A stretch of DNA of 64,000 nt, from NCBI RefSeq assembly GCF_035083965.1, contig NC_089724.1, positions 7,790,501-7,854,500 of the forward strand, written 5' to 3'. Source of the stretch: Branchiostoma lanceolatum (Eukaryota > Chordata > Leptocardii > Amphioxiformes > Branchiostomatidae). This document shows, one piece after another, positions 698 to 61,800 of the stretch; the stretch's first letter is position 1; every line of letters starts with the position of its first letter. The notes below the pieces were generated by a model. It was not told the origin of the DNA. It searched no databases and saw only the letters and a program-made list of their open reading frames with translations. The position numbers were made by a program, and so were the translations under genes.

Positions 698-3600
698 CTT
701 TATCTGTAGCATGAGTGAGGTGAGTTTGGTGATGAGCTGACAGGCGTCCTGACTCTGCACCGTTTTCGCGCCGTTCCCCTCGTTCGCTCTCTGCAGGATC
801 TCCACGGCGTCCTCCTCGCATCTCTTCTTCAGCGCCGAGCCTGCCGGTTCCTTTATCGTCTCCAGGCCTTGCTCTGGAGCGATCTACGGCAAGGAAAGTC
901 TCATGGTCATGATCACGAAAACAGTAAGGACTACGAAGCCCGGAAGGGGAGGTACATGATACAGAGGACCTGCCCTTTAGTGTCCACCACATGAAATGCT
1001 CAATGCCTAATAAACAAATTACATAGTGAAGATGATGTTACCTCATCATCCTCATGACCTTTGAACATTAGGACTTACATATCCAATATCGTTATGATAT
1101 CATAACTTAAATTTTACCGATACAAATGTAGCTGATGTTTAACTTTGTGGTGTTTGCTTTTAATGTAAATCAATAAGAATAGGTGTTGGTTCATGTTGTG
1201 GTGTATACATCTGATGTTAATCAGCAAGGTATTTCAGACACCATGTACTATGTACGTCTGCTATTTGCTAATAAAAAGTCATCTCATCATCTCAAATAAA
1301 CATTGGCTCTTGTTATGCCACTGTTTCCTTCATATTCTGCTTAATTCTGCCATTCTGTGGCCGTGCAATACTACAGATGTGTACATACCTCCTGGCAGTA
1401 CTGTTGGACCCCTATCAGGTAAGTGTTGAGTTCCCTGTTCAGCCTCTCCAACTCCAGGACCAGGGTGGCATATTTCTTCTGGAACTCCACATCCACACTT
1501 TCACCGTGAGATTTCTACAGGGACAAAACCACACATACATGTAACTCCACATCCGCACTTTCACCGTGAGATTTCTACAGGGACAAAACCACACATACAC
1601 GTAACTCCACATCCACACTTTCACTGTGAGATTTCTACAGGGACAAAACCACACATACATGTAACTCCACATCCACACTTTCACTGTGAGATTTCTACAG
1701 GGACAAAACCACACATACATGTAACTCCACATCCACACTTTCACCGTGAGATTTCTACAGGGACAAAACCACACATACATGTAACTCCACATCCACACTT
1801 TCACCGTGAGATTTCTACAGGGACAAAACCACACATACATGTAACTCCACATCCACACTTTCACCGTGAGATTTCTACAGGGACAAAACCACACATACAT
1901 GTAACTCTACATCCACACTTTCACCGTGAGATTTCTACAGGGGCAAAACCAAACATACATGTAACTCCACATCCACACTTTCACTTTGAGATTTCTACAG
2001 GGACAAAACCACACATACATGTAACTCCACATCCACACTTTTACTGTGAGATTTCTACAGGGACAAAACCACACATACATGTAACCCTACATCCACACTT
2101 TCACTGTGAGATTTCTACAGGGACTAAACCACACACAGATGTCAATTATATGTAATGTTTCATTCTAATTCTGTATCTGTATCTACACACATGTAGCTGT
2201 TATAACCCTCCTTCAACGTAACACGAAACGATCGACCCGTCACACCTGACCTTCGCATATCTAACTGCATGCATTGTTAAAAACTATCCAATGAGGATGC
2301 CTCTACAGTGCTTGATGGTAACTAGTTCCACTCTACGATATTTCTAGGAAAATACGAAGGACGAATTGCATATCACCTTGCTGTAACAGTGTTTCATGAT
2401 ATCCCTAGGCTCTACACAGTTACAGTACAGACGAAGCCACTTAATTGCACCTCGGATAAACGCACCTTCCATTTAATTGCACCGAATCCCAAAATCCCAA
2501 ACCGGTTCCCATTCACTGCATTGTTAGTGACTCCGCATATCTGCACCGCGCATGGTCACCAATGCCGGATAACTGCACCATTTTTTTTAAGTTAAGTTAA
2601 CTGAAAAGGTGCGCTAAAATCGGCAAACGCGGTACAAATGAGCCCATACCTGCCGGTGTAAAGGCGCAATACCGCCAATATGTTTAAAACTGTTTTGAGT
2701 ATCAAAAGAAGGTGGTCTGCATTGACAGTTACGTTGATAGGAATCGTATGGGAGGTCCCGTGCGGGTCACCCGTAATCAGTAACCAAGTTTTAGTTTCAA
2801 TTCCTAGTTTCATGGCGGTACATGATTTACGTAAATCGACAACTGCACTCTACGTAATGTAACACAGAAACTGTTATCCCATGAGTGGCATGTTTCAGGA
2901 TCATGAGAATGCCTCCCCTGTAAGTTGTAACATCACGTGTGTTGTAATGCGGCAGATCGCATGGAAAAATGAAAGAATACAAAATCTTTTAAAACAGGTT
3001 CGTAGTCATTTCTTTATTTCCAGCAAAGGGTCAATAAATAAAGTTAATATCTGAATAATGTCGTCCGTTTTCTTTGTGCTAGTGTTTCTGATTAACAATA
3101 CACCCCCTTGCCCATGGTGGTGCGGTCCAGCTGGGCATTTCGCATAATTGAACCAGCCGGATAATTGCACCAAAAATGCTGTCAATTGGGTGGTGCAGTT
3201 AAGCGGATTCTACTGTATTATCATTTTTCATTTTGCTGTATGTTACTAAAAGATAAGTGTAAGTGTCCTTACAGTTTTTTCTGCCTGTGTGTTCATTTCC
3301 CTCAGGTCCTTGATCCGGTCCTTCTTAATCAGTAAGACTTTTGATAACCGGGTCTAGAAAGAAAAACATACACGTCATATATGTTTTTAAGCAGCTCAAA
3401 TTATCCTTATCTTTTATAGACAAATTTCTTCTGTGTTCTTTTTGGAAAAAAACTTCAATGGTAATTGGTACAACTAGATATTCCACTGTTATTTTTCTCA
3501 ACATCTGGTGATTCAGTTTAATTTTCAGTCAAGTTCATGACCAGGAATTTGTTAAAACTTCCAATGACTGCTGGTTACGTAACACTCCTGAAAATAAGGG

Positions 3601-58800: not shown

Positions 58801-61800
58801 TGGGACTTGAGTGACATAGACAAGGATGGCTGTCTGGATAAGGAGGAATTTGCTGTGGTAAGTATGATGACTACATATGAGGTTATCTCTTATCATTTCA
58901 TCCAGTGGTTTGAAAAGTTGCACATTGGCTTTTTAATGAAGTCTTGTCAAAGAGCTATAATGCTTAATGCAGGATCTTACGACAAAGAACCTGGTTGTAA
59001 AGTAGTTATGTTGAATATGTTTTTCGTAAGAGTTTGTGTGAACCTTTGTTTATTCATGAGAAGCTCAAGTCGACCTGCAGGCAGCAGGGAAGGGTCAGAC
59101 ACATATAACAGAGATATAGATTACAATATCTAAGTCCTAATCATAATAACTCTATCAACATGTATCAGTACATATACATAGTATGCAACATATAGCAGAA
59201 GTTGGTCCATGGTCTTTCGTTGTCCCTTCATATCGTAATTTCTGTTACTTGAGTCTCTTAAAAAGGAAGTCAGATTTGGAGCCATACCGGCATACGTAAT
59301 AATAATAATAATAATAATGAATGGTTTTATTTGATCATACGTGTGTCTGGTGGTAATCTGTTCCAGACATCATGTCTGCAGTAGGCTTATAATCGATCTG
59401 ATCTCGAGTGAATGATGTCTTTACAGGCGATGCATCTGGTGTACCGTGCGCTGGACAAGCAGCCAGTCCCCACCACCCTTCCCCCAGAACTCATCCCTCC
59501 GTCCAAGAGAGGACCCAGCCCTGGACTGGCACCTGGTCCCTCTCCTGCTGCTCTCACATCACCAGCACATGCTTTACATGCACAGGTAAGGCAGCTCTAT
59601 AATACCTCCTGCACTCACATCACCAGCACATGCTCTACATGCACAGGTAAGGCTCTATAATACCTCCTGCACTCACATCACCAGCACATGCTCTACATGC
59701 ACAGGTAAGGCAGCTCTATAATACCTCCTGCACTCACATCACCAGCACATACTTTACATGCACAGGTAAGGCTCTATGTATAATACCTTCTGCACTCACA
59801 TCACCAGCACATGCTCTACATGCACAGGTAAGGCTCTATAATACCTCCTGCACTCACATCACCAGCACATGCACTACATGCACAGGTAAGGCAGCTCTAT
59901 AATACCTGCTGCACTCACATCACCAGCACATGCTCTACATGCACAGGTAAATAAGGCAGCTCTATAATACCTCCTGCACTCACATCACCAGCACATACTT
60001 TACATGCACAGGTAAGGCTCTATGTATAATACCTTCTGCACTCACATCACCAGCACATGCTCTACATGCACAGGTAAGGCTCTATAATACCTCCTGCACT
60101 CACATCACCAGCACATGCTCTACATGCACAGGTAAGGCTCTATAATACCTGCTGCACTCACATCACCAGCACATGCTCTACATGCACAGGTAAGGCTCTA
60201 TAATACCTGCTGCACTCACATTACCAGCACATGCACTACATGCACAGGTAAGGCTCTATAATTATAATACCTGCTGCACTCACATCACCAGCACATGCAC
60301 TACATGCACAGGTAAGGCTCTATAATACCTGCTGCACTCACATCACCAGCACATGCACTACATGCACAGTAAGGCTCTATAATTTACCCACATGTTAACA
60401 CTTTCCAATGTAATTTCAACTAGTAGATACTTCTGTGTAGAATCTAGTTGTTTGCTAATATTGGTGTTATTTTGATACATAATGATTTGAGCTGGAAACT
60501 GGGTGTTCTGAAAATCATTGTCTTCAAAAGGTAGCTCTATACATTAAAAAAAGATACAAAAACGGAAGTTCAGCTGCAGTACCAAGATCACATACCAGGG
60601 GACCCAAAATCGACCTTGACCTTTGTCTTCACAACCCACATACTAGATATCATCGTTTATTGATAATCCATTCAGAGGTTCTTGAGTTGCATGTATGCTA
60701 ACTACAAAAATCGGGAAACACAAACAGACACACATAAACACACACACACATACACACACACACACACACACACACACACACACACACAAAACAATATCTC
60801 TATTTTTCATGGAGATAATGATAACTAAAGGTAATTTGCAAATACTTTACATTCTAGCCCACCCCCTGGGTGGTGACACCTGGTGACAAGATGAAGTACG
60901 ACAACATCTTCCGGCAGGCGGACACGGACAAGGACGGGTTCGTGAGCGGCGGGGAGGTCAAGGACGTCTTCATGCAGTCTGGAGTTCCGCAGAACGTGCT
61001 AGCACACATCTGGTCTGTATTTGTCTTCTTCTTCTTCCAAAAAACGTTAGAGGAGAAATGACTTTGGTAACCACCCAGGTCTTTCCCCCTCAATCATGTC
61101 CAACATTGTTTTTAGTCCGTTGATTGTAATGACTCCCATTTTCAGCTGTGTTGCTATTCTTCTGCCCTATCCTCGAAGGCATACTCTTCCTCCTTCTCCT
61201 CGGTTGACCCCCTTCTCTTGCAGAGCCTTTCCAACGACCAAGTAGACGGACATTTTTTTTCCTAGACAAACAGTTTGTCTCGATGGTATTGACAACATCG
61301 GCCCCAGTCAAGTTGGTGTCACCAAATGCCATTGGGCATTTCCAGCCAATTTGTCAGTCAATTTGTCAGCCACTTGTAATCTCCTGGAAAATAGACGACC
61401 TTTAGTGTCCATCAGTATCAGCAGTTTTACCATACATAGAGTGGCTGCATGTCAATCAAATGCATAGATGTGCAAAAGAATAAGGTACAAAAGTATTATG
61501 ATTTTGTACCTTATTCTTTTGCACATCTATGCATTTCTTTTAGGTGGGTGGGGCTAGTGAATAAGTGCATTACTGGGCCTGAAAGCCCATCTTATCCCAT
61601 TTCTTGATGGTTCATTGTATTTCATTATATTCTTGCATTTGTGACTTGCGGATGATGTGGTTTGCTTGTGGATGATGCTCAGTACTTGAAGTTTATCTAC
61701 AATCATGACATGTGCTTTGCCTCACCCGTAGGACCTTGTGTGATGAGAAGCAGGCTGGGCTGCTAAATGCTGAGCAGTTTGCTTTGGCCATGTGGCTGCT

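Follow-up and report, generated by a model that had tools for sequence, protein, structure and literature searches.

Tandem arrays that copy exon-intron junctions in a 64-kb window of lancelet DNA

Why should five minisatellites in one short stretch of lancelet DNA each contain the edge of an exon? An earlier note on this window (the whole stretch that was analyzed, 64 kb) had described five tandem arrays in four genes, each copying a splice junction. We called arrays with Tandem Repeats Finder (TRF) over the window and compared them with gene models made without transcript support, which place 51 exons and 95 junctions in it. The description was borne out: all five arrays are present at the places described, all fall within 59 kb, and the repeat unit of each spans a real exon-intron boundary, as judged by the predicted exons. 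The host genes, supported by homology, are LIN9, a CAP/GLIPR1-like gene, a GCC1-like golgin (two arrays) and EPS15.

1483-2142, minus strand: LIN9 acceptor array, 11 copies of 60 bp (TRF, sequence, human LIN9 PDB alignment, frame)
28016-28660, plus strand: CAP exon 3 donor array, 12 recognizable copies of about 47 bp (TRF, sequence, CAP Pfam, GLIPR1 alignment)
46937-47250, minus strand: GCC1 exon 11 donor array, 3 copies of about 108 bp (TRF, 108 bp x 2.9; sequence, frame, site scores)
50738-51235, minus strand: GCC1 exon 7 acceptor array, 5 copies at 108-115 bp spacing (TRF, 108 bp x 4.5; sequence, frame)
59544-60383, plus strand: EPS15 exon 9 donor array, 14 copies at 57-65 bp spacing (TRF, sequence, copy alignment, EPS15 EH alignment)

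Each unit consists of a splice site, part of a predicted coding exon and the adjoining intron; the copies sit on the intron side of the junction, and the TRF unit sequences differ between arrays, in agreement with the claim that they are unrelated. The LIN9 unit has 28 bp of intron and 32 bp of exon (real acceptor 1514/1515; exon 1389-1514). The CAP unit has 27 bp of exon and 20 bp of intron, with the real donor after 28042; the TRF call covers 28016-28527, and decayed distal copies extend to about 28660. About 41 bp of exon and 17 bp of intron form the EPS15 unit (real donor after 59585), and this array also carries a 246-bp higher-order period. The GCC1 exon 11 unit comprises about 37 bp of exon and 71 bp of intron (whole exon 47214-47330); its donor is weak (AAG/GTCACC), and the two copies of it score weaker still. 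The sizes first given for these four arrays (11 x 60 bp, about 12 x 47 bp, 3 x about 107 bp and 14 x about 60 bp) hold up. For the GCC1 exon 7 acceptor, put at five copies of about 110 bp, the array stood but the site did not: by frame, the true site lies 8 nt upstream of the repeated TAG. The exon 7 frame is open with the acceptor TGTGTCAG/TTCTGTAGAG (50788) but not with TTCTGTAG/AG, 8 nt downstream; with the acceptor corrected to 50788/50789, the exon part of the unit is about 51 bp. In all five arrays, with unit borders judged by eye, the junction is roughly central (exon fraction 0.34-0.71).

The EPS15, CAP, SLC45-like and TMEM263-like models are in frame, as is GCC1 after the acceptor correction. 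The LIN9 model is in frame as two blocks, exons 1-6 and exons 7-10; one exon that belongs between them was not found, and joining the blocks gives 12 stops in frame 0. Domain matches were obtained for LIN9 (LIN9_C, PF19438, 1.4e-29; DIRP, 1.7e-17), EPS15 (EH, PF12763, 2.4e-44) and the GCC1-like golgin (GRIP, 6.2e-18), and for the CAP gene (PF00188, 1.1e-16) with a query that, for the Pfam and GLIPR1 comparison, included five residues before exon 2 not belonging to the protein. Alignments were made to human LIN9 (PDB 7r1d), EPS15 (1eh2) and GLIPR1 (3q2r). The CAP unit encodes the CNYGP motif common to GLIPR1, and the LIN9 unit falls in a stretch aligning with human LIN9. Since these two units encode residues common to the human homologs, the exon is the older element and served as the template for the array; an outside homolog thus indicates copying from an authentic exon for two of the five arrays.

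The splice dinucleotide is retained in 42 of the 45 copies: GT in 9/12 copies of the CAP array, CTGTAG/A in 11/11 copies of the LIN9 array, and 14/14, 3/3 and 5/5 in the EPS15, GCC1 donor and GCC1 acceptor arrays, respectively. Use of any duplicate site would introduce a stop codon into the predicted mRNA (40/40 decoys), an outcome that chance makes likely for most inserted stretches. From these stops, the exon-proximal copy alone looks productive.

That junctions are overlapped more often than chance allows, as had been proposed, holds in this window. Five of the seven minisatellites with a period of at least 20 and a score of at least 100 span one of the 95 junctions, where 0.69 would be expected over the window (p = 1e-4) and 1.10 within gene bodies (p = 1e-3), both values computed before the 8-nt GCC1 correction. 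Five spanning arrays were reached in 6 of 8,699 rotations, and the junction-overlap rate ratio is about 22. Doubling the junction density for missed exons gave p = 0.003 (7 arrays) and 0.006 (10 arrays). The window was chosen for looking unusual, so these p values apply locally rather than to the genome as a whole; seven strong minisatellites are also a small sample. Looser TRF settings still gave 7 merged arrays scoring at least 100. In an alignment scan of the 95 junctions, a local copy scoring at least 20 was found at only five (scores 32-50), and no weaker duplication stood out at the others (next score 18). Short low-scoring arrays that the looser TRF settings add at three more junctions (34067, 53523 and 56497; scores 40, 35 and 80) were treated as noise because the scan gives none above 18 there. 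Among 600 control positions taken from outside the arrays and no closer than 60 bp to a junction, nine likewise score at least 20; these are found at 11.4-11.8 kb, at 22.2 kb and at 53.0 kb and are presumed to be dispersed repeats.

Arrays that contain no junction were also found, some of them close to one.

3615-3670, minus strand: (TAG)n microsatellite beginning 3 bp past a LIN9 donor (GTAAGTAG...) (TRF, sequence)
9960-10532, no strand assigned: purely intronic LIN9 minisatellite, 127 bp x 4.5 (TRF, sequence)
50465-50637, minus strand: (TTCT)n microsatellite 9 bp past the GCC1 exon 7 donor (TRF, sequence)
62146-62278, plus strand: 26-bp array just before the acceptor of EPS15 exon 12, without the junction (TRF, sequence)

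Of the ten TRF arrays scoring at least 80, eight have a junction no more than 15 bp away (reached in 5 of 12,147 rotations), as do three of the five non-spanning ones (57/12,147); the 15-bp limit was set after the data had been seen, and at 10 bp the non-spanning count is 2/5 (527/12,147). These three stop 3-13 bp from the junction. With the (TTCT)n array, GCC1 exon 7 is flanked by arrays on both sides. An (AC)n array lies 69 bp from a junction, and the 127-bp array, a strong minisatellite 425 bp from the nearest one, is at odds with the pattern. The suggestion that arrays are merely retained where splicing survives leaves unexplained both the scarcity of purely intronic arrays and the three that stop short of a junction. 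In the 26-bp array, four copies of CTGAC, a branch-site-like sequence, follow one another at intervals of 26 bp; the one nearest EPS15 exon 12 (which begins at 62287) is about 24 nt away from it.

The earlier note had mentioned exon-boundary minisatellites at an amphioxus Adh locus, correctly: they are published as "mirages" (Canestro 2002, cited in PMC3087553). In the portions of the literature consulted, mirages are described in Adh3, the globins Gb6 and Gb9, TnC (troponin C) and PGBD5 exons 3 and 4. Like our arrays, they are tandem repeats of a donor or acceptor boundary between exon and intron, with AG or GT retained in many copies, and their unit lengths overlap with ours (Adh3, 10-72 bp; PGBD5, 60 and 108 bp; globins, 150-160 bp). 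The five arrays are new, dense members of this class. They differ from those accounts in lying in four genes within 59 kb, none among the genes named there, and in copy number (up to 14, against 3 and 6 in BflGb6). Length instability and normal mRNA are reported for published mirages, while the present case is a single sequence with predicted splicing. Chance was measured here and further arrays were found adjoining junctions; the local enrichment of about 20-fold and the arrays that abut junctions without containing them are new. No genome-wide count of mirages was recognized in the open-licence full-text literature searched, and the part of an amphioxus huntingtin paper that mentions tandem repeats describes no junction arrays. 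Variable internal tandem repeats in human genes (PMC2812944) are likewise minisatellites altering gene structure but, in their abstract-level description, are not defined by junction-carrying units.

Could the association be fortuitous, in a minisatellite-rich amphioxus-like genome that has no overall preference for junctions and happens to place five on them here? Only seven strong arrays are available, the local p is about 1e-4 to 2e-3 (up to 0.006 if half of the junctions were missed), and the window was flagged for the junction arrays themselves. The independent published mirages and the clustering of further arrays beside junctions nevertheless make this unlikely. Artefactual collapse or expansion of repeats during assembly is the most improbable reading: although copy number in the published PGBD5 arrays differs between two lancelet sequence versions (2 versus 7, 3 versus 6), the available account states that the original sequence was upheld by a second look at the Sanger data and by new Illumina data, and here individual copies have private variants, a higher-order pattern is present and the coding frames remain open.

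The introns themselves might have arisen by tandem duplication of exonic AG/GT, as in the Rogers model of intron gain from proto-splice sites, proposed for the globin mirages (as cited in PMC3087553) and likewise involving duplication across splice-like sequence in a gene. AG/GT is present in the EPS15 and CAP units, and the EPS15 AG, which outscores 5 of 46 real acceptors, falls within their range. The CAP AG, however, scores below all 46, and neither acceptor array (LIN9, GCC1) matches the pattern. An intron equal to the duplicated segment was rejected, as the introns run on 474 bp past the EPS15 array and 114-247 bp past the CAP array. Existing junctions are repeated many times here with no new intron shown, and we regard this origin as highly unlikely. 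A targeted process, in which co-transcriptional R-loops, paused polymerase or splicing-linked nicks at exon edges initiate duplications, would account for the enrichment, the position of the junction within the units and the abutting arrays. Donors and acceptors are both affected, however, and the sense-strand GC skew of the five junctions (-0.36 to +0.57) is no different from that of the others. Neither GC content (p = 0.53), sense GC skew (0.80), exon-intron GC step (0.10) nor purine content (0.38) separated the five from the rest, at low power (n = 5), so a simple R-loop cause gains no support. Of the proposal that some process favors junctions, the local excess stands; targeting is a tentative idea.

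Most probably, the arrays are mirages in the sense of tandem DNA duplications that took in a real junction and later grew as ordinary minisatellites. A first duplication would include the exon-intron junction, and the duplicated segment would then expand; the 246-bp EPS15 period is the trace expected from multi-unit slippage or unequal exchange. The non-proximal copies would be decoys for the cell to ignore or, presumably, to clear by nonsense-mediated decay. Because arrays with and without a junction cluster there, exon edges in this genome may act as local hot spots at which tandem duplications arise, with periods both short and long. Speculatively, and with considerable doubt, lancelet exon edges could be mutational hot spots for tandem duplication whatever its period, across the whole span between 3-bp microsatellites and 108-bp units, through a transcription- or splicing-linked lesion, mirages being the visible tip and numbering thousands genome-wide. 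If about one in twenty junctions genome-wide were affected (5/95 here), splicing would proceed correctly past many near-perfect decoys, a natural test of how exon edges get chosen; the pattern would point to a DNA lesion placed by gene structure rather than sequence, and new exons and introns would have a steady supply of raw material.

Within the arrays, neither the exon part nor the splice site is consistently less diverged; the exon part leans to stronger conservation in the EPS15 and GCC1 acceptor arrays but not in LIN9, CAP or the GCC1 donor. Tested in four arrays, divergence correlated positively by rank with how far a copy lies from its exon (for EPS15, with most sites one position off), for the exon part significantly in none. 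For the intron part, the rank correlation was perfect in the GCC1 acceptor array, over four copies only.

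Tandem Repeats Finder (period at least 20 bp, score at least 100) identified seven strong minisatellites in the window, and looser settings, with overlapping rows merged, again gave seven arrays with a score of at least 100:

1483-2142: LIN9 acceptor array
9960-10532: intronic minisatellite
28016-28527: CAP exon 3 donor array
46937-47250: GCC1 exon 11 donor array
50738-51235: GCC1 exon 7 acceptor array
59544-60383: EPS15 exon 9 donor array
62163-62273 (extent also given as 62146-62278): 26-bp minisatellite near EPS15 exon 12

Five of the seven are the junction-copying arrays described in an earlier note, and in structure they are mirages. 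This name was coined for tandem repeats over exon-intron boundaries in amphioxus Adh3, according to passages of PMC3087553, and the exon-boundary minisatellites that the earlier note mentions at an amphioxus Adh locus correspond to these. The same passages place globin mirages in BflGb6 and BflGb9, cite two other loci, and consider mirages possibly general among cephalochordates; an excerpt of PMC3902484 describes two PGBD5 exons with repeats of 60 and 108 bp and cites Adh and troponin C. The published cases and our five arrays are alike in being tandem repeats over exon-intron boundaries. Among the open-licence papers listed by full-text searches, none was recognised as a genome-wide count of mirages. 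The 127-bp intronic array at 9960-10532, which by eye shares the motif TAATGAGG with 10822-10852, is perhaps part of a mobile element.

The gene models contain 51 exons and 95 junctions:

698-13334, minus strand: LIN9
SLC45-like transporter
25504-29618: CAP gene
TMEM263-like gene
42732-54549, minus strand: GCC1-like golgin
55865 onward: EPS15

Pfam matches over the cut-off were LIN9_C, DIRP, CAP, GRIP, EH, and MFS, with UPF0444 slightly under it (26.3 vs 27.6 bits); the N-terminal GCC1 exons matched only ATG16, under the cut-off (21.1 vs 33.7). Human LIN9, EPS15, and GLIPR1 were matched in the PDB. Apart from the GRIP and MFS matches, the names GCC1 and SLC45 are our presumption. The open reading frame is kept across the EPS15, CAP, SLC45-like, and TMEM263-like models. 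LIN9, whose exons were placed using a human sequence, is in frame as two blocks (exons 1-6 and 7-10), with the array junction within the second; an exon between 4194 and 3775 was looked for in this model and not found, and terminal exons may be absent. The GCC1 exon 7 acceptor array is real, but the splice site first assigned to it breaks the frame at exon 6-7, which is mended by an acceptor 8 nt upstream (between TGTGTCAG and TTCTG).

The excess over junctions claimed earlier was borne out in this window when every array was reduced to one unit and placed at random. A random unit of the seven lengths spans an annotated junction with a probability of 0.03-0.17, so that 0.69 of 7 were expected over the whole window (p = 1e-4 for at least five) and 1.10 within gene bodies (p = 1e-3), against five observed. 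Including three extra arrays (score at least 50, period 21) gave 0.74 and 1.18 expected (p = 2e-4 and 2e-3), and doubling the junction density gave p = 0.003 with seven arrays and 0.006 with ten. This calculation used the uncorrected GCC1 exon 7 acceptor; the corrected site falls in the same array. Rotation of the junction set reached at least five in 6 of 8,699 cases, and arrays were ~22 times denser within reach of a junction than elsewhere. By direct alignment, a local copy scoring at least 20 was found at 5 of the 95 junctions (scores 32-50, the next being 18) and at 9 of 600 control positions drawn randomly outside arrays, which are taken to be dispersed repeats.

The exon part, judged by eye, occupies 32 of 60 bp of the LIN9 unit, 27 of 47 bp for CAP, about 37 of 108 bp for the GCC1 donor, about 51 of 108 bp for the GCC1 acceptor, and about 41 of 58 bp for EPS15. 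The junction thus lies towards the middle of the unit in all five arrays (exon fraction 0.34-0.71), a pattern that is suggestive, though n = 5. The splice dinucleotide is kept in 42 of 45 copies (LIN9 11/11, EPS15 14/14, CAP 9/12, GCC1 donor 3/3, GCC1 acceptor 5/5). With a matrix built from the other sites of the window, the real LIN9, CAP, and EPS15 sites score at or above the median, while those of GCC1 are among the weakest (donor 4.3 vs a minimum of 4.0, acceptor 2.5 vs 2.1). The EPS15 array has a higher-order period of 246 bp, and its copies 4 and 8, like 5 and 9, are identical, a pattern that slippage over several units or unequal exchange would produce.

The CNYGP motif, which GLIPR1 also has, is encoded in the CAP unit, and the coding part of the LIN9 unit falls within a region that aligns with human LIN9. 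These exons predate the arrays, so the CAP and LIN9 arrays derive from exons rather than the reverse. Homology gives the direction of copying for these two and is silent for GCC1 and for EPS15, whose repeated exon part lies in a linker between two EH domains.

Predicted mRNAs were built for use of each of the 40 copies that are not exon-proximal, and all contained a stop (EPS15 13/13, LIN9 10/10, CAP 11/11, GCC1 donor 2/2, GCC1 acceptor 4/4); three CAP copies lack GT, leaving 37 of the 40 as possible decoys. The LIN9 unit is a multiple of three, but the TAG of the acceptor falls in frame, and the CAP donor sequence reads as TGA. These stops are a functional constraint and no sign of selection, because chance alone would put stops in most inserted stretches.

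Other arrays adjoin junctions and copy none:

3615-3670: (TAG)n microsatellite, starting 3 bp past a LIN9 donor
50465-50637: (TTCT)n microsatellite, starting 9 bp past the GCC1 exon 7 donor
62146-62278: 26-bp array, ending 8-13 bp upstream of the EPS15 exon 12 acceptor

Among arrays of any period scoring at least 80, 8 of 10 have a junction no more than 15 bp away (matched by 5 of 12,147 rotations), as do three of the five non-spanning ones (57 of 12,147); for the other two the distance is 69 and 425 bp. The 15-bp limit was picked post hoc; at 10 bp, two of the five remain (527 of 12,147). A filter retaining junction-containing repeats cannot account for these adjoining arrays, as they copy no junction. 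A locally unstable exon edge could do so, and a milder reading is that microsatellites were stopped by the neighbouring exon. GC, sense GC skew, GC step, and purine content did not differ significantly between the five junctions and the others of the window, and donors and acceptors are both affected. On these two grounds, we favour a hot spot due to gene structure over one due to sequence, with a hypothetical causal agent.

The (TAG)n repeat could have arisen from the donor sequence GTAAGTAG. In the 26-bp array, CTGAC occurs four times at 26-bp steps, and the last, about 24 nt upstream of the exon, is a plausible candidate branch site. Elsewhere, a 448-residue open frame on the minus strand inside a LIN9 intron (6430-7776) looks by eye like a retrotransposon reverse transcriptase, and directly beyond the CAP gene (29660-29820) a segment around GGGCTTATGATACACT, again as judged by eye, recurs in inverted orientation, possibly as a hairpin or small element.
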